A DNA stretch of 64,000 bases from Chrysomallon squamiferum (lineage: Eukaryota > Mollusca > Gastropoda > Neomphalida > Peltospiridae), in assembly GCA_012295275.1 (NCBI GenBank), contig CM022679.1, positions 18,420,842 to 18,484,841 on the forward strand. Direction: 5' to 3'. The translations under genes and the position numbers were made by a program. Positions 1-58,649 of the stretch are shown here, piece after piece. The first letter of the stretch is position 1; the number at the start of each line of letters is the position of its first letter. The notes beneath the pieces are model-generated. The model was not told the DNA's origin, did no database searches, and saw only the letters and a list, made by a program, of their open reading frames with translations.

Positions 1-5861
<5,861 letters not shown>

Positions 5862-6135
5862 TATTCCGTGGTATTTAGTTAGTTAGTGCATGATGTATAT
5901 TAAGAAAGATAATAAGTACTTGAAATTTCGAATTCTGATTGGCTCGGAAAGAAAAATTCTTTAAAATATCACATTTCACTTTAGATGAGCAATCTATAGA
6001 CGTCTTCTCTGCTTTGAATAATTCAGTAAAATCTGTTTTTTGTTAATTAAATATTTAAGAAAGAGTAATATCAGTGGACTATTTTGATATCAGGTTTCAT
6101 GTACTGAAAGAGAAAAGATGAAAAAATCAGTTAAA

Positions 6136-6166
<31 letters not shown>

Positions 6167-6412
6167 TAACAAAAATATACACATAAATAACACATACACA
6201 GAATTCGTGTATGTGTTATTTATTTATATATTCTTGGCGAGTTTTTCTTTATTAAAAAGTAAATGATAAATAACTATTTAACAGTAGGACTTAGGCCATA
6301 TGGCATACTTTTATAAAGAGAAAGAAATATGTCATTAACTGTGGTTTCATTTAGCTTTGTGCGAATGTATTTTTTCTTACAATTTTATATAGCTAAACCA
6401 TGTATGTGTGTG

Positions 6413-6454
<42 letters not shown>

Positions 6455-8490
6455 CGTGGGGATGGAGTGCAGATGTATGTATATGTACGAATTGGTAGAT
6501 AAGCGACAAGTCGCCCCTCGCCAGTTGTTCAAGCATTTAGTAGTGAGTTTGTCAGCCATCTTTAGATTTTTTTTAATGTCACCTTTGCACCATTTGTAAT
6601 ATTTTCATTATATTATTATATGTTTATACAGGATATTATTATAAACATAATAAAGGAAATCTGCTATAATATACATTACTTAAGTTTGGATATTGTAAAT
6701 ATAGTTATAACAAATTTAAATTTTAGTTTATAAAGGAAAAGCCAACTTATTTTTATTTTTAATATCTTAATTTGACTAATTCGAACATATTACATAACAA
6801 AAAAATACAATCGTACTGTAAAGTATGAAATTATAAATGAAATATTAGTCTTTGAAATTGGGAACACTAGTGTAGTGAACGAGACTGTTCCTAAGTCCTC
6901 GTGGTCTTTTAACAAATAGGACGTTTAATGGGGACTGCCTGTACTAAGTACTTTTTAACTGAAAGAAATTAAATAATAATGAGGCTATTAAAGAAACAGA
7001 GATATGAAATATTGCTATTACTGTCGGAACTAGTACTACTACTATTGCTTATTATTATCATTATTACAACAACATCGGCAACTACTTCAAAGGACAAAAT
7101 AAGGACAGAGGAAAGCAAAAAAAAAAAAAAAAAATAAAAAATAAATAAATAAAAAATAAAAAATGTATAAAAACAAAAAGAAAAAAACCCATTTTCCTAC
7201 TCAATAAGTATGCAACAAATATTGTTTTGAATCACTGCTAGAATATAAAAGTTAAAAATCATTTCTGATGTGCTCATATTTTTTATTACTGTATACTTTT
7301 AAAATATTTATGTAATTTAACATTCTATTCAAAAATTATTATGATAAAAGTGATATTTTTAAGTAGTGATGGCGTATTGAATTTACTCGCTTACCACAAT
7401 CAACATCCAAGCGTCCAGTGACAACATGTCACATTAGAGTTATTTCTTGATAATAACACTGACATCAGCACAGTGAAGATATATATTTTTGTTTATTATT
7501 CTCAATTAGTTAACTGCTGGTAAATGGGGATTTGTTTAACATGATGTGAGTATAGTTTTATTTTACATTTTCTAAATATATAATTTTAAATTCCCTGCTA
7601 AATGGTGTAGAGTACAAAAGTTATTATCGAAATGCTCATTAGTGATGTTAATAAAAAACGTACTTTCTGTCTCTCACCCCACCCCCGTACACACACACTC
7701 CAGTTGCTACAAATACATTTTGGTTCACTATATTTTGGAAGAATCCAAATCAGTTCGTCAAACTTATACTGTCGTGATGCCTGTGCTAAGGTGTTCGTTT
7801 ACATGTTTAAGGGTTCAGGTTTTTCGAACACTAGTAAATTTACGAATGCCAGTAATTTATTTTCATGACGTATAATATATGCACTAGATAAATAATACAT
7901 CATTAGGAGTGTAGTTCAAGTTATTTATTTATCTTCTAATAGTAAGGAAATTTTATACCGTATCTTATTCATAGCTGCTTTTTTGAACATTTTAAATTAC
8001 ATACATGATAAGGCAAATGGCACAACATCAAAATACACATAACATAGTTTTGTAAATGCATAACTAAGAAAATATTTTGAGGCACATCATCTATAATATT
8101 CCATACACCAATTTATACATATATAAATAAAAACGAATATTAAAAACGGCCTAAGAATGTTTATTCTGTGGGCAGTGCCTCAGTGATGAGAATAAATACC
8201 CTTGAAGTTGTAAACTCCAATAGAGTACTAGTAGATTATCTTCTTTAGAATGATCACTGGCTGGCTGGTTGACTTCATGCGTGGAAGTGGAAGTCGTGTC
8301 TCTTATCTCTCTGTGAAAGTATATAATGTTTATTAATATTAAAGGTATTTTGTCTGTTTTATCAATGTAAATTACTGCTAAAGATACGTCAGTATGCAAC
8401 ATGAAATGAAAAAAAGGAAAAAATAAAAAAATAAGAGTAAAAATGTAAGTGGAGAAAGTGAACAGAAAATAAGGATAAGCAGTAGCAAAG
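5862..8490. other. Intergenic: upstream of gene B, no gene seen
   Basis: AT-rich sequence between the gene B start and the LINE relic. It holds (TA)n at 6145-6170, (TG)n at 6423-6452, poly-A with TAAA runs at 7115-7160, and no supportable exon. It should contain the gene B promoter, but I see no convincing core element. Confidence 0.5.
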
Positions 8491-8892
8491 ATGGTCAAGA
8501 GGTCGCCATACCGAGGATGTCAAATACACAAAATAACGAACTTGGATGTTCATCTGTACCATTTTATCAGTCCACACCAATTCAACAGTATGTCGCTACC
8601 CAACAACCTCAGCAGTCACAATATCGACAATATGGACAGACCTGTGGATCCAACTGTCAGTATAAAATTAGATACTTTAACTAGAAAGTTAGATATAATG
8701 TGTGATAAGCTGGACAAATTGGATATGATCGAAAAACGACTGAATAGCATGGAAATAACTGTACAAGATATGAGTGGTAAGATTATTGATATTAAGAAAA
8801 AAGTACAAGGTATGGAAACGGGTATGAATTACATTAACGAACAGTTTGAAAGGAATAAAAAAGATATCGGAGATATAAATCTGTTGTGTTAG
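8491..8892 (+). pseudogene. LINE ORF1-like coiled-coil fragment
   Basis: 133 codons from an ATG. Residues about 50-125 form a coiled coil (LDKLDMIEKRLNSMEITVQD, KIIDIKKKVQGMET) like that of L1-type or jockey-type ORF1 proteins. The reading frame breaks at 8890, and homologous sequence seems to continue in another frame (MNSSTREMRDNNNSMKQQI). The RNA-binding part is missing. Probably not a functional gene. Confidence 0.6.
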
Positions 8893-9813
8893 ATATGAAC
8901 AGTTCTACCCGTGAAATGAGAGATAATAATAACAGTATGAAACAACAAATATGTGAATTAAAAACCGAGTTTTGAAACTTAAGAAAAAACCATAATGACC
9001 TACAAACTCGCTTCATGCGTGATCAGTCATTGCCTGATCATGTAACACCAATAGAAGAGTTACACACTCAAAGCCAAGAAACTACTAATGATATTTTGAA
9101 CAAGCCTTTTTCAGCCGAGGAAATATCTAGAGCAATAAACAGACGCCATTGTAATCGATCAGCTGGAGAAGACTTTATTATTAATGAATATATTAAGCGT
9201 ACTGCTAATGTTATGTTACATTTATATGTACTATTGTTTAATGTTATGCTTGACACAGCAATTATACCATCCGATTGGTTAATGGGACTCATCGAGGTGC
9301 TCGAAATGACCCTGAAAATTATAGACCTATTACATTATTAAGCGGTTTAGGTAAATTATTTACATCTGTATTTAATTCTAGATTAAACAGCTATGCAGAT
9401 GAAACAAACCTGATTCTAGAAAATCATGCTGGATATCGTAAAAATTATTCAACGTCAGACCATATATTTTCTTTATACTCGTTAATTATTTTAATGAACA
9501 AATGTAAAAAGAAATTGTATTGCCCTCTCAAAAGAATGCTAATGACGTATGTAAATTTAGAACCGCGAATGCTAAACTTCCTACTGAAACTAAACGATGG
9601 TCTACTTTTCTAAGAGAAAACAGAAAATGTCATATCAGTAATCTTAACAAAACTGGAGATGAATATCATTATGTATTTGAATGCAATGATCCTATATTAT
9701 TAAATGCGAGAAAAGGTATACCAGATAAATATATGAGACATACAAATATAATTTCATATAATAATTTGTTTAACACTAAAAATATATTTGTATTAAAAAA
9801 GCTATGTTGTTAA
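8491..9813 (+). mobile_element. Decayed non-LTR retrotransposon (LINE) with internal deletions
   Basis: Three pieces in element order. (1) 8491-8892, ORF1-like: a start, then a heptad-rich coiled coil (LDTLTRKLDIMCDKLDKLD), continuing after a frameshift to LQTRFMRD near 9020, which resembles the ORF1 junction after the coiled coil. (2) 9021-9520, ORF2 reverse-transcriptase fingers: FSAEEISRAINRRHCNRSAG, then in another frame DPENYRPITLLSGLGKLF and HAGYRKNYSTSDHIF. (3) 9540-9813, the ORF2 C-terminus with a CHI..LNKTGDEYHYVFEC zinc-finger-like motif. The endonuclease domain, the RT palm with its catalytic aspartates and much of the C-terminal region are missing. The copy cannot mobilise itself. 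Confidence 0.75.
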
Positions 9814-10705
9814 TAACAACTATATGTGAGAGAGTATGTCCTCCTTCCACGCATATGTATTTTAATTTTCTTATTATATAGCTGTAATACATTCTTCTCT
9901 GTACTACAGTGTCTTTCTCCTCGTTGTTCTCCGTGGTCTCTGGGCTCTTTTGTCTTTTACTTAAATAAATATGTCGCGGACTTCCTTGAATACATATTTA
10001 ATTAATACTTACTGTTAGGAATATTTGTAGAAACGAATGGGAACATATTTACTTACTTTAATCATATATGCAGGTTAATTTCGAGATGTTAGACTGTATT
10101 AAAGTAAGCTATTTAGGTAAATACTAAATATGTTACCGAAATTCTCAAATTCTGTACCTTAATACTAAAACAGTATAAAATATTATAATAAGAAAAAAAA
10201 GCTACAAGCGGATTCTACAAGTAGGTATAATCTAAATTGCGATCCGTGGTTTAATAAGGAAATTAGGACCATTTTTCTAATTTAAACAAACACAGAAAAC
10301 ACTACATCTAAATATCGCTGAGAAAACTTTCTACAGCTTGATTGAAGCCCTAAAGTCATGGACAGAGCTAAAATGGAAACAACGCCAATTCCTAAAATTT
10401 ACGCCGATGAGATTTCTAATCTCAGGAAAAACCACGACTTTGTTCGTAATGAATAGTTAGCCGAGATTCCACGTTTTAGTGCCATTAAGACGATACTGTA
10501 TCGACAGTGACACAAATCCCTACCCCGACTACCCCAGACAAAACAGGATATCAATTTAGAAGGAGAGAGGACCCGCACCGAGGGAGGAGATCCTTTTCTA
10601 CACCGAACTGAAGGAGGAGACCTAATACTGATCTTCACAACTGACAAGAACTTGGAGTTGTTGTGTGACGCAGATGTTGTATTACCAGATGGATCATTTA
10701 TTTAC

Positions 10706-10740
<35 letters not shown>

Positions 10741-12548
10741 TTAGTACTGTAATACCCAAAACGTAACCAGCGATATGAATTCGGATTAACCTCGATCGGT
10801 AGAGCCTTTCTAATGGGATCGAACCTTCTTAGTGGACCCATTGGGGTGTTTTTGTTTTTGTTGTTATTGGTGCGTGTATGTGTGAGAGAGAGAGTGAGAG
10901 AGAGCGAGAGAGAGAGAAAGTGGAGGCACTGAAGATGAATTCTTATGCATCAAATGTTTATTTTATAATATTTAAAGAAATATTTATATACAAGACCATC
11001 TACTTTTAACATAATCAATCTTTTGTCTTCAAAAAATAAAAAAACAAACTTTAAGGAATTTTGATAAATATGTAATTTAGTTTGCAACTATATACATATA
11101 ACAACTATATGTTTATATTTTTATCATCCTAATTCTTACGTTTAACTTGTTTTCCTGTGTTTGTATACTGTAATCTATTACACAACTGTTTCTGTTTTAT
11201 ATCTACATTCTGGTGTGTTTTGTGTTTATAGTCATGCTGACTTTGGCAAATACATTTACTGAACTGAAATTGAATTGTAATAATAATAGTAGTAGTAGTA
11301 ATAGATGCGGTACAGTATCATCTCGTTGTTACCTTTTGACTGCGCACACCGTCAGCCAGGTAAAACGGCAATTAACGAGTACAGGGACATCGACAGATCA
11401 TCACTGGTACATTTCAGCTTTATCCACTAAGTAGACAAATTTTAAGATCATTTATACAAGTTGTCGACTTCGAGGGCCATAACCATATGGTTAAGGGCCC
11501 TACTGTTGGAGGTAAAAAACGGTTTACCGTAATACTAGGGTGCTTGTTATCAAGTCTAGGGAATATAGGCGTTTAGAACAACACCACAGGGATTAGTTTT
11601 AAACTATGATAGTTACTTATTATCATGATGGTATGATATTTCCACTAGATAAATAACAAATTAACAAGAATGCAGCTAGTTTTTTTTTTTTTTTTTTTTA
11701 ATTTACAAACACATTTTATAATAATATACAAGAAAATAAACACAACTAAATTATTATGGTTTTGGGAAAAACTGAGCTTGAATACAAAATCAGCTGAATT
11801 CTAATTAAAGACGGAATCGGTAACGTGAGAATTCAGTAATTGTTAATATCAGTTTATATATAAGTTAATGACACAAATTACACTGCCTAATGACGGTATA
11901 AAAAACCAATGGAGAAAAGTATATTACCACAACCCCTCTGACAAATGCTTACCAAAACAAGGCCAAAGTTTCAAGATGTTCTTCCGTGACCATAACATAC
12001 ATCATACGTAACCAACATGTTGTGCAACGGCCCTCTAGTCGCCTCTGCTTCTCAGACCCAGAACCCCGAGTTTTCGTTGATACCAGTATATACTGGCTTC
12101 CTGCCGACGTCGTGAAAACCGCGGAATCAAAGAGAAAACAAAAGCCAATTGGTGGACAAATCTCAAAGTTGTATCAGTTTGTCTCACGAAAGAAGCTATA
12201 TCATGGCCGCCTATTTACTTTAGAATTTAAAAAATACCTTCAGTATTTCGTCAACGCGTATTTTCCCGTAAAAGTGTATTATTGATAGTCAAACAGTACT
12301 TAATTATTTGCCTAAATCCGCAGTCAAAGGCAGTTTATTTAGTTATTATAAATACATATTTATTTAATATTTGTCGTTGATTTATCTTTTCTCTATTTCA
12401 CATATAGAGACCAGACAATCTGAAGATTATATTCGCATACAAATTAGCACTTTAATAAAATATCTGTCGTATTTGCAAAAGAAATATTAAACAAAGACGA
12501 GATTATCCATCTTTGTCATTAATATATTTTTTTCTTCTTTTACTACAG
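9814..12548. other. Intergenic upstream of gene C: TE scraps, no clear exon
   Basis: It holds a GC-richer fragment (10330-10680) with no intact frame, an (ATTT)n tract (10695-10743), a minus-strand GGTTCGATCCC B-box-like element near 10825, poly-T at 11680-11699, and another GC-richer stretch (11940-12270). That stretch is open on the plus strand but has no ATG start. Any upstream exons or the promoter of gene C would be here; I could not recognise any polycystin sequence in it. Confidence 0.4.
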
Positions 12549-13193
12549 ATAAATCATGTTTCAACAACAAAGGAAAGGAAAAGAAAAACAAGAAGTTTAA
12601 CCTTTGGACTTTATGAAATAAAAATGAAACTCGTGGAAATATCTTCATCTGAAGACAAGCAGTCACTACCAGCAAATACAAAAGCTGTAGGTCTACATGG
12701 TCAAAACATCACTCAAGTGAAGATTTCTGAACACTCAGATACTTCAGATTATGATGTCTGTGAATCATATCATAGCGATGATGACAGTATTGACATACAT
12801 AGTAACTACGGTTACACAACTGCTTTACATGCTGTATATGAACGAGAAGAGATATATTCTATAACCAGTAAATACGACAATACAGCTGAGTCCTACAGTA
12901 ATAAGTGTCGATTAAAACAGTCGGATGTCATATCCACCGAAAGATCACAGTGCAGCTTGCATTATAACGACAAAATCAGTGATGATTGCCAACAGAAAGT
13001 CCCCGATGTTGAGAAGATAAAAGAGAAACAGATGTTGAAAGTAATGCAAGAGATTGTTCTCTACGTCGTTTTTCTTTTATTACAAATGAGTGTGACGTAC
13101 AGGACTGTGACGCCAGAGAGTTATCTGATGAGTGTGAATTTAGAAAATATATTTATTAATGAGAAAGCCAACACACAAATGTTATTTAACAAC
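12549..13193 (+). CDS. Gene C first recognised exon: acidic cytosolic N-terminus and S1
   Basis: 645-nt exon. The 75 nt before the ATG read INHVSTTKERKRKTRS in frame, so this could be coding after an upstream exon or 5' UTR. The region after the ATG has acidic clusters (SDTSDYDVCESYHSDDDSID) then a basic stretch KIKEKQMLK before S1. It is much longer than gene A's counterpart (exon 34, 254 nt) and starts in a different phase, so the upstream intron is not shared. Ends at donor GTAAGTAC. Confidence 0.75.
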
Positions 13194-15849
13194 GTAAGTA
13201 CTTACACATACACATACATATAAACATACATACATACATACATATTCTTGTATTAGAAATTTCATTATTTTAATAATGATTGTCATTTACAGTATCAGTT
13301 TTAATGTTTGATATATATATATATATATACATATATATTTTATGATTAATAAATTATATCTAAACATATGAGAAATACCAGTAAATAATTCAAGTATTAT
13401 GGAATATAGTGGATGCTTTAGAGAGAAACCGAAGATCACAATTTGAATTTACACAGAAAAATGTACTTGTCGGTTTATTAGTGTAGTTTTTGCCTTACCA
13501 TGCTCTTCCCAGTAAATTTAATCATAGTCATGCTGACAGACACCATAATACTTTCTTTTTTTTAACTAAAAATGTTTCTGAAAAGAATAAGTTAGAATCA
13601 TTATAGTTTAATAGATTTTTTTCTTGATATTTACTTACAAAATTATTAACAACTTTTTTTCTTCAGATGAGGAACGTGGATGAATTCTGGATGTGGGTTC
13701 GCACTGGATTTCTGAACGGTTTGCAGGTTAACAGAGAATACAATAGCGTTTCTCCTTCAACACTTCCAGGCTATATCAATGACGGAGTTTCCTTCATTGT
13801 GGGATTTGCAACAATGCGACAACTGCGTGTAAGACCAGGTATATTTTTATTTTATAAATATAATCTCTAGGTAGAAACAAAAACAAAACATTAAAAAAAA
13901 TAATAATAATAAAAAAAATTAAAATAACCGAACAACTCCTCCCCGAAGAAGAAAAACACAAACGATTCAGCCAAAATGAACATGTTTACCTTTTATTTTT
14001 TAGTTTAATCCAGGCATGAATAAATTAATATAGTACATCTTAGAAAAGACATGGTAAAGGCAATAAAGTATGTACGGCACAACGTGAGCTTCTGGCACAT
14101 TGGAATATTATTTAAAAAGATGAAAAATAATATAGAATATGCAATGAAATATTAACAATAATTACTTATTAAAACGTTGTATGTATACAACTGTTGATGT
14201 AGACCTTGATGAAATCAATATAGAAGAAAAGGGGAATCTAAAAAAAAAGAAAAATAAGGAATAAATGATAAATCATTTTGTTTCAGTCAACCGTAATTTC
14301 TATTTTTTTCATAGGTTTATGCAAGACATCTTATCTACTTAGAGACATCATACATGAATGTAACGATTATTACAAATCTTCTAGAAAAGATAGACGCACA
14401 TATGGACCTGGCTGGGTATCACTTCCAAAAAATGTGACAGCTGACAACTCCAAGAAAACACCATATATATATCGATCAGCTCACACCATCCAGGGGTATC
14501 CATACTGGGGACAACGCCAAGTTTATGGAGGGGGTGGCTACTTGGTGGAACTCAAAGGAAATCGTAGCGCTGTGCAGCAAGTGCTTGCTACTCTAGAATC
14601 TCAAGGATGGATCGACCAGTACACAAGAGTTGTGTTTATCGAGTTTACAGTGTATAATCCTAATGTTAATTACTTTTGTATTGCTACTATTCTGGTAGAA
14701 TTTGAACGCACGGGAGCTACACTTCAATCATATCGTTTCGAGCCAGCCATGCTACTGACATATAGGTCTCACGCCATGATATTTCAAGTGATTTGTGAAA
14801 TAGCATTTTTTGCATTCACTGTTTCATTTCTTGTCATTCAGATTCGTAACATTATCCGACAGAGAATGAAATATTTTAACTATTTTTGGCACTACTTTGA
14901 ACTTACTACGATATTTTGTGCCATAATAGCTATCGTGGTGTATTTTTACCGATTTGCTGCGACGAAACAATTGACTCGACAAATAAATAAAACTCGTGGA
15001 ACAAAGTACATAAAATTTCAATATGTTGGTTACTGGAATGCGTTCTTCTACTATATATTTGGATGGGTAGTTTTCTTTGGCGTTCTAAAATTCATAAAAC
15101 TCCTACGTTTTAACAAGAGAATGTTCATGTTGTCCGGTACATGGAGATATGGCGCAAAAAGTCTTTCTCATTTTGGGGTGATTTTCTGGTTAACTTTCAT
15201 GGCATTTGCTCAGCTATTCTACTTAACATTCATGTCAACAATGTATTCCTTCCGGCATATCATGGCGTCCACTGAATCATGTTTTACCATATTGCTCGGC
15301 ATTTTCGATATTTACACAATGACAGTGATTTCACCAATACTCTCCAAGTTCTATATCTTTTTTTTCGTTCTAACCATTGGATTTGTCGTTCTCAATATGT
15401 TTATGTCCATTCTCAATGAAACATTTGCTCGTGTCAGAGAGGAAATACAGAGAAGACAAAACAAATATGAAATTATCGAATTTCTTGGCCAAAAAATTCG
15501 AACAACACCAAAACATTTGAATAACAAACTAAGACAACTGGCACGCTCGAGTAAACGACTTAAATTAAATAAGATGGATAATTTCTTGAACAGCATGTAC
15601 AAGTCACGGGTCCGCATGCACAGAGAGGAACTAAGCCAGACAATGAATAGGAAACAGCTTTCACAGGTAATAAAATTCAAAAATGAGGATTCAGTGGTTG
15701 CAGATAAACTGGAGGGGAATATTAACTCAAATAATGTACAAAAACAGATTTGCAAGTCAAACGATCCAGTTTATACTTTGCAGATGTGTCATGCTGTTTG
15801 TGCAAAATTCGATTCCGTGAAGCCAGCTGAGAAACCAGCTGTCATTTAA
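12549..15849 (+). CDS. Gene C: short PKD1-like channel (six-helix polycystin channel domain)
   Basis: Exons 12549-13193, 13667-13838 and 14315-15849; 758 residues if translation starts at the first in-frame ATG (12624), though the frame stays open to the acceptor CTACAG at 12548. N-terminal about 140 residues are Ser/Asp-rich and cytosolic. S1 is IVLYVVFLLLQMSVTY. The TOP domain has YPYWGQRQVYGGGGYLVEL. S2-S6 follow (S6 YIFFFVLTIGFVVLNMFMSI). The filter reads LLGIFD (about 573-578), lacking the TRPP2 acidic residue. Both introns match gene A, and the middle exon is 172 nt in both. There is no GPS, PLAT or REJ in frame. The tail is basic and lacks EF-hand and coiled coil. Either a genuinely short channel subunit or the 3' end of a gene with unrecognised upstream exons. 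It converges on gene A and diverges from gene B. Confidence 0.88.

Positions 15850-18969: not shown

Positions 18970-58649
<39,680 letters not shown>

Follow-up and report, generated by a model that had tools for sequence, protein, structure and literature searches.

A 64,000-nt stretch of the Chrysomallon squamiferum genome (contig CM022679.1, here C15:18420842-18484841; 404.6 Mb in 22 contigs), referred to below as the window, carries polycystin genes on both strands. Two of them, genes A and B, are long receptor-type genes on the minus strand. The third, gene C, lies on the plus strand, tail-to-tail with gene A, the stops of the two genes being 3,120 nt apart, and appears to be a short gene derived from the channel end of a PKD1-like receptor. 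Its three exons of 645, 172 and 1535 nt join in frame to a reading of 783 codons with no internal stops and a stop codon at 15847-15849, the first intron being in phase 0 and the second in phase 1. With 783 open codons and junctions that keep the frame, the three exons proposed earlier for 12549..15849 proved to be real. Coordinates of all features are given in Table 1.

To define the domain content of gene C, Pfam searches (E up to 0.1) were performed on the joined reading. Polycystin_dom, PKD_channel and Ion_trans were obtained and nothing else. The hydropathy profile displayed seven segments, six of which fit S1 to S6 while one falls at the pore and filter. The layout of TRPP2, a TOP domain followed by a six-helix channel, is thus present. 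No EF-hand was detected in gene C at this Pfam threshold, while EF-hands were found in the control, the Gigantopelta PKD2 protein P0123. Neither GPS nor PLAT was matched within gene C itself, by Pfam or by tblastn with nine polycystin proteins. The latter search matched gene C in its S1, 172-nt and last exons and nowhere else, whereas in gene A it also matched GPS, PLAT and transmembrane (TM) exons. These results agree with the original prediction, according to which gene C keeps only the six-helix channel and TOP domain and has no EF-hand. The C-terminal tail was examined with a custom heptad score. Shuffled sequences scored as well in 61 of 300 cases for gene C, 119 of 300 for gene A, 10 of 300 (borderline) for P0001, the close relative of gene C described below, and 0 of 300 for each of two PKD2 tails, indicating that the gene C tail has no clear coiled coil as judged from its residues. 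An AlphaFold model covering exon 3 of gene C had a mean predicted local distance difference test score (pLDDT) of 75.4, with residues 455-510 under 50. When solved structures were ranked by sequence against gene C, PKD2L1 and PKD2 came first (E from 1e-63), followed by PKD1L3 (1e-37) and PKD1 (1e-14). Vertebrate PKD1 looks fast-evolving, the tuna PKD1 end branch having a length of 6.35 in the tree described below, and the ranking may therefore reflect rate.

Table 1. Features of gene C and its neighbors in the window.
Feature	Position	Strand	Remarks
Gene C exon 1	12549..13193	+	acceptor just before 12549; donor GT 13194, phase 0; holds ~75 nt of probable 5' untranslated region, a Ser/Thr/Tyr-rich cytoplasmic N-terminus and the S1 helix
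Gene C most likely start codon	12624..12626	+	context AAAAATGAAA; codon score flips from negative to positive here
S1 helix	13041..13097	+	residues 165-183 of the 783-codon reading, by hydropathy
Gene C exon 2	13667..13838	+	172 nt; opening part of the polycystin (TOP) domain; following intron in phase 1
Gene C exon 3	14315..15849	+	remaining TOP domain, S2-S6, C-tail, stop
PKD_channel domain	14767..15432	+	residues 424-645, by Pfam
Filter triplet Leu-Gly-Ile	15295..15303	+	Ile at the position of Asp in PKD2 rows and Lys in gene A
Gene C C-tail and stop	15487..15849	+	basic (24 K/R, 10 D/E); partly conserved with P0001
Gene C polyadenylation signal AATAAA	16004..16009	+	
Gene A last exon	18970..20399	-	1430 nt; counterpart of gene C exon 3
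Gene A 172-nt exon	20641..20812	-	counterpart of gene C exon 2
Gene A S1 exon	21016..21269	-	254 nt; counterpart of gene C exon 1
Gene A GPS, PLAT and TM1-5 exons	21527..25014	-	no counterpart found upstream of gene C
Gene B WSC+PKD 5' exon	3235..3852	-	gene B exits the window leftwards to about 18391.7k of C15

The 3' end of gene A consists of exons of 254, 172 and 1430 nt separated by introns in phases 0 and 1. Both intron positions are the same as in gene C, as had been noted in the original prediction, and the phases agree as well. Gene B has its 5' end at 3852 and its 3' end beyond the window, with the channel exons ~26-29 kb to the left (region L009); its S1 exon measures 254 nt and its middle exon 172 nt. 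The 172-nt exon is thus common to all three genes, whereas the 254-nt S1 exon occurs in A and B and not in C. A PKD2 match elsewhere in this genome (L018) was split into several tblastn pieces within the region that genes A, B and C encode in one uninterrupted last exon, indicating that introns interrupt this region. The intron pattern therefore agrees with the channel tree in setting gene C apart from PKD2. Gene A and its orthologue in Gigantopelta aegis, P0019 (LOC121379844), are 46–49% identical to gene C in the channel; gene A differs from it by a Lys in the selectivity filter, and P0019 carries WSC, PKD, GPS, PLAT and REJ, of which gene C retains none, keeping the last six helices only. 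A second Gigantopelta protein, P0030 (LOC121379847), is the likely orthologue of gene B. Its N-terminus contains many tandem repeats with a unit of ~28 residues, which probably represent a gene-model artefact.

The descent of the channel was determined from the last-exon region in a tree of 75 rows, comprising 58 of 223 protein hits, P0001, and 16 readings from the C. squamiferum genome including genes A, B and C. Nine terminal branches flagged as long were retained, P0100 was excluded, and the tuna PKD1 row, which fell below the BLAST cut, was added via a profile of the remaining rows. The genomic rows L016, L017 and L024 were each joined from two pieces. All 18 PKD2 rows were placed on one side of a branch with support of 100/100. 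Gene C and P0001 formed a group (100/100) that was joined by gene A and P0019 at 100/97, and these four were nested among gastropod PKD1-like proteins. Grouping gene C and P0001 with PKD2 cost 90.7 log-likelihood units and was rejected by the approximately unbiased (AU) test (p-AU 1.45e-7). Based on these results we concluded that gene C almost certainly originates from the PKD1 side, where the original prediction had placed it. Neither of the two outcomes named there as contrary, a grouping with PKD2 or transcripts joining 12549 to GPS, PLAT or PKD-repeat exons, was encountered, although no transcripts were available for examination. Constraining gene C and P0001 to group with gene B cost 12.1 log-likelihood units and was not rejected (p-AU 0.138). 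In a second tree of 32 rows covering the whole channel, gene A was again the sister of gene C (99/97), the gene B constraint giving a p-AU of 0.177. A constraint holding the A, B and C genes together was not rejected either (p-AU 0.457). Gene A is thus most likely the donor in preference to gene B. In a survey of cephalopod TRP channels (PMC13402157), non-vertebrate TRPP proteins were left unsplit into PKD1 and PKD2 sides, unlike in the present tree.

The selectivity filter separates the two sides as well. Asp occupies the filter position in 18 of 18 PKD2 rows and in none of the 57 other rows; gene C and P0001 have Ile. The Leu-Gly-Asp filter of PKD2/TRPP2 is therefore missing from gene C, which is TRPP2-like in layout only, its filter and tail not being those of TRPP2. 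Hence, the proposal that a PKD1-like receptor was turned into a small channel with the TRPP2 body plan stands with regard to descent, by introns, tree and AU test, and to layout. The functional half of the proposal, a small channel of the TRPP2 type, finds no such support, given an Ile instead of Asp in the filter and a tail unlike that of TRPP2. The possibility that gene C is simply an ordinary PKD2 (TRPP2) gene draws on the same domain layout and on the best solved structures by sequence, PKD2L1 and PKD2. We regard its probability as negligible in view of the tree, the AU test, the intron pattern, the filter residue and the failure to find an EF-hand; in addition, separate PKD2-type loci (L018 and L028) occur in this genome. 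Other short polycystin channel proteins lacking the Asp filter were found in public data (P0004, P0007 and P0016; 541–628 aa), which may represent fragments or additional cases of gene reduction. Two more arrays of PKD1-type channels, with six and four matches, are located at C8:24.31-24.61 Mb and C15:28.36-28.49 Mb. Their filters vary (Glu, His, Gln, Lys), and in the tree they stand well apart from genes A, B and C.

Position 12549 is an exon start behind a splice acceptor and not a start codon. Scored among all 3305 AG sites of the window, this acceptor outranks 99.7% and falls within the top 0.3%, and an exon upstream of exon 1 that is joined at this site therefore probably exists. The 75 nt preceding the ATG at 12624 are likely a leader behind this exon. 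A codon score, trained in its final version on the exons of gene A alone (an earlier version included gene C), was negative in the frame of 12549-12623. From the ATG onward it was positive in seven consecutive 75-nt segments and negative in the next. Since a second frame scored about equally in two of the positive segments (12774 and 12924), the score provides moderate evidence only. Judging from the sequence, the product likely starts at this ATG and comprises 758 aa, and gene C is very probably a real protein-coding gene, whose transcript is probably truly short.

The strong acceptor, together with a frame that stays open upstream of 12549 to 12459, would also fit a gene C that forms the 3' terminus of a complete PKD1-like gene, with the remaining coding exons far upstream and interspersed among those of gene B, which is read from the opposite strand. 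Window positions 1-12548 and regions L009-L011 were searched by tblastn (E up to 10) with the segments of P0019 and P0030 that extend from GPS to TM5. Over these ~42 kb, the plus strand gave four matches, with E values of 2.8 to 10 and none lower, compared to 18 on the minus strand belonging to gene B. Genes A and B hold their GPS, PLAT and TM exons within ~6 kb of the channel. Seventeen further regions around PF08016 matches in this genome were fetched, and 10 kb upstream were read in each. PLAT homology upstream of a PKD1-type channel was found in 13 of the 17; L018 and L028 are of the PKD2 type, and two could not be assigned, L019 giving no match and L020 a partial one, with a PLAT match containing one internal stop ~16 kb upstream of the channel. 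Counting genes A and B, 15 PKD1-type genes are accompanied by PLAT, and for gene C none was found in the ~42 kb upstream. A whole-genome PLAT search listed no match near gene A or gene B either; the PLAT of these genes is split over exons, and the silence of that search near gene C is therefore uninformative. Taken together with the codon score, which turns positive from the ATG at 12624, these results make a gene C with distant receptor exons rather improbable. Since GPS, PLAT and the 11 helices were not found in gene C or in the ~42 kb upstream on its strand, it is regarded as PKD1-derived and is not classed as a PKD1-type receptor. A custom exon chain tying gene C to stretches further upstream was disbelieved, as it consisted of simple repeat, retrotransposon-like pieces of open reading frame and short stretches without PKD1 homology. 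Between genes B and C, open reading frame pieces at 8479-9341 (+) resemble, by eye, a non-long-terminal-repeat retrotransposon. A long GA/TC simple repeat, whose open frame reads as an Arg-Glu run, occurs at 5535-5730 (+).

P0001, a 566-aa reading from a 337-kb ENA contig that comprises the last exon only, was the sole protein more than 50% identical to gene C among 104 proteins compared. It is 66% identical to gene C and 48% to gene A, and its best match in the C. squamiferum genome is gene C (71%), followed by gene A (51%). We infer that P0001 stems from another neomphalid snail. As a sequence type, the conversion is thus seemingly an older event, common at least to the P0001 lineage. Between genes C and A, the three codon positions differ by 0.40, 0.28 and 0.65 (517 codons), a pattern that selection acting on the protein would be expected to produce, and gene C accordingly shows signs of purifying selection at the sequence level. 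The shared stem of gene C and P0001 in the 75-row tree was 0.77, compared to 0.19 for gene A, indicating that sequence change was rapid once the gene had originated. This fast evolution and the loss of most of the gene are what a decaying fragment or pseudogene of a duplication might display. However, the 783 open codons, the excess of third-position differences from gene A, an orthologue with 71% identity, good splice sites and the AATAAA signal make a pseudogene very improbable.

An inverted partial duplication of the 3' end of gene A would be the simplest account of these data. Gene C would have arisen, before the split from the species of P0001, as an inverted copy of the three 3'-terminal exons of a PKD1-like receptor gene, with gene A as the most likely donor. 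A full duplicate that subsequently lost its 5' exons would be compatible with the data as well. The original prediction had named loss or partial duplication as the origin, and the latter fits because the nearest full-length relative, gene A, adjoins tail-to-tail at 3.1 kb. The product would lack the ectodomain, GPS and PLAT as well as helices 1 to 5. It would be a polycystin subunit with six helices and ~758 aa, its cytoplasmic N-terminus being new. Such a subunit may assemble with PKD2 as one member of a heterotetramer, as do C-terminal fragments of PKD1 and PKD1L3. We give this heteromerization an even chance. The pore would then be lined by one Ile and three Asp filter residues, and the Ile might change which cations are selected or reduce the influx of Ca2+, without an attached receptor end. 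As a whole, the explanation of a short PKD1-derived gene encoding a subunit of PKD2 heteromers is, on balance, slightly favored.

Alternatively, a short, PKD1-derived gene C might work alone as a homotetrameric channel, which would represent functional convergence on TRPP2. The solved-structure matches, which in sequence and fold alike favor PKD2 chains over PKD1 and PKD1L3, would also suit a homomer. In a homotetramer, however, the filter would hold four Ile and not four Asp, an EF-hand was not found and a clear coiled coil was not seen. Furthermore, PKD1-side proteins are described as assembling with PKD2 proteins (PMC8357825). We therefore consider a homotetramer unlikely and the role as a hetero-subunit the more likely of the two. 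Apart from these structure matches, several points weigh against a short gene encoding a PKD2 partner. The strong acceptor at 12549 implies a probable further exon upstream, which might be coding, and gene C is known here from genomic sequence and not from transcripts. P0001 was seen as a last exon only and need not be short in its own species, and the donor might be gene B instead of gene A (p-AU 0.138 and 0.177). Finally, gene C has no clear coiled coil, while the coiled coil of PC1 is described as required for PC2 binding (PMC2925899).

Short forms of the PKD1 channel half have been described before. P100, a cleavage product of mammalian polycystin-1, is a PC2-like C-terminal part that begins in the third intracellular loop (PMC2925899). 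It is released from the complete receptor by cleavage and retains the PC1 coiled-coil tail, whereas the gene C product would come directly from its own gene. The truncated PKD1L3 construct (PKD1L3-CTD; PDB 7d7e/7d7f) retains channel activity together with PKD2L1 at a ratio of 1:3 and with a filter of one Lys and three Asp (PMC8357825). Like gene C it has a non-Asp filter residue, but it is engineered, not molluscan, and has Lys2069 in place of Ile. Eliosin arises from human PKD1 as an alternative 3' transcript, which has a separate transcription start in intron 40, skips an exon and yields a 47 kDa product (PMC12574933). It resembles gene C as a short product of the last PKD1 exons; however, it is a transcript of an intact locus and not a separate gene. 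Members of the PKD2/TRPP2 family share with gene C the TOP domain, the six helices and a similar fold but form a separate clade with other introns, an Asp filter, an EF-hand and a coiled coil. No earlier mollusc gene of this kind was found among the matches listed in open-licence PubMed Central full texts. The oyster 'polycystin' of PMC12677090 is a PKD2 with EF-hands. By analogy, gene C most likely encodes a PKD1-type subunit that enters PKD2 heteromers, and as such would be the equivalent, at the level of a gene, of P100 or PKD1L3-CTD.

Gene C thus appears to represent, as a natural and independent gene, a fragment known mainly as a cleavage product and a laboratory construct. The role of the PKD1 channel half alone is an open question in the biology of polycystic kidney disease, which has so far been approached through P100, Eliosin and truncated constructs. 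Tentatively, the snail lineage may have made the PKD1 channel half an independent, conserved gene, a dedicated subunit with a hydrophobic Ile filter that tunes the PKD2 pore, by which modulation would be split from the sensing of ligand or force. Selection has apparently maintained gene C next to its two long paralogues, and its changed filter residue provides a concrete electrophysiological prediction. If true, a P100-like fragment would be hard-wired in a genome, and the same PKD2 partner could be compared directly, within one genome, with and without the receptor end.
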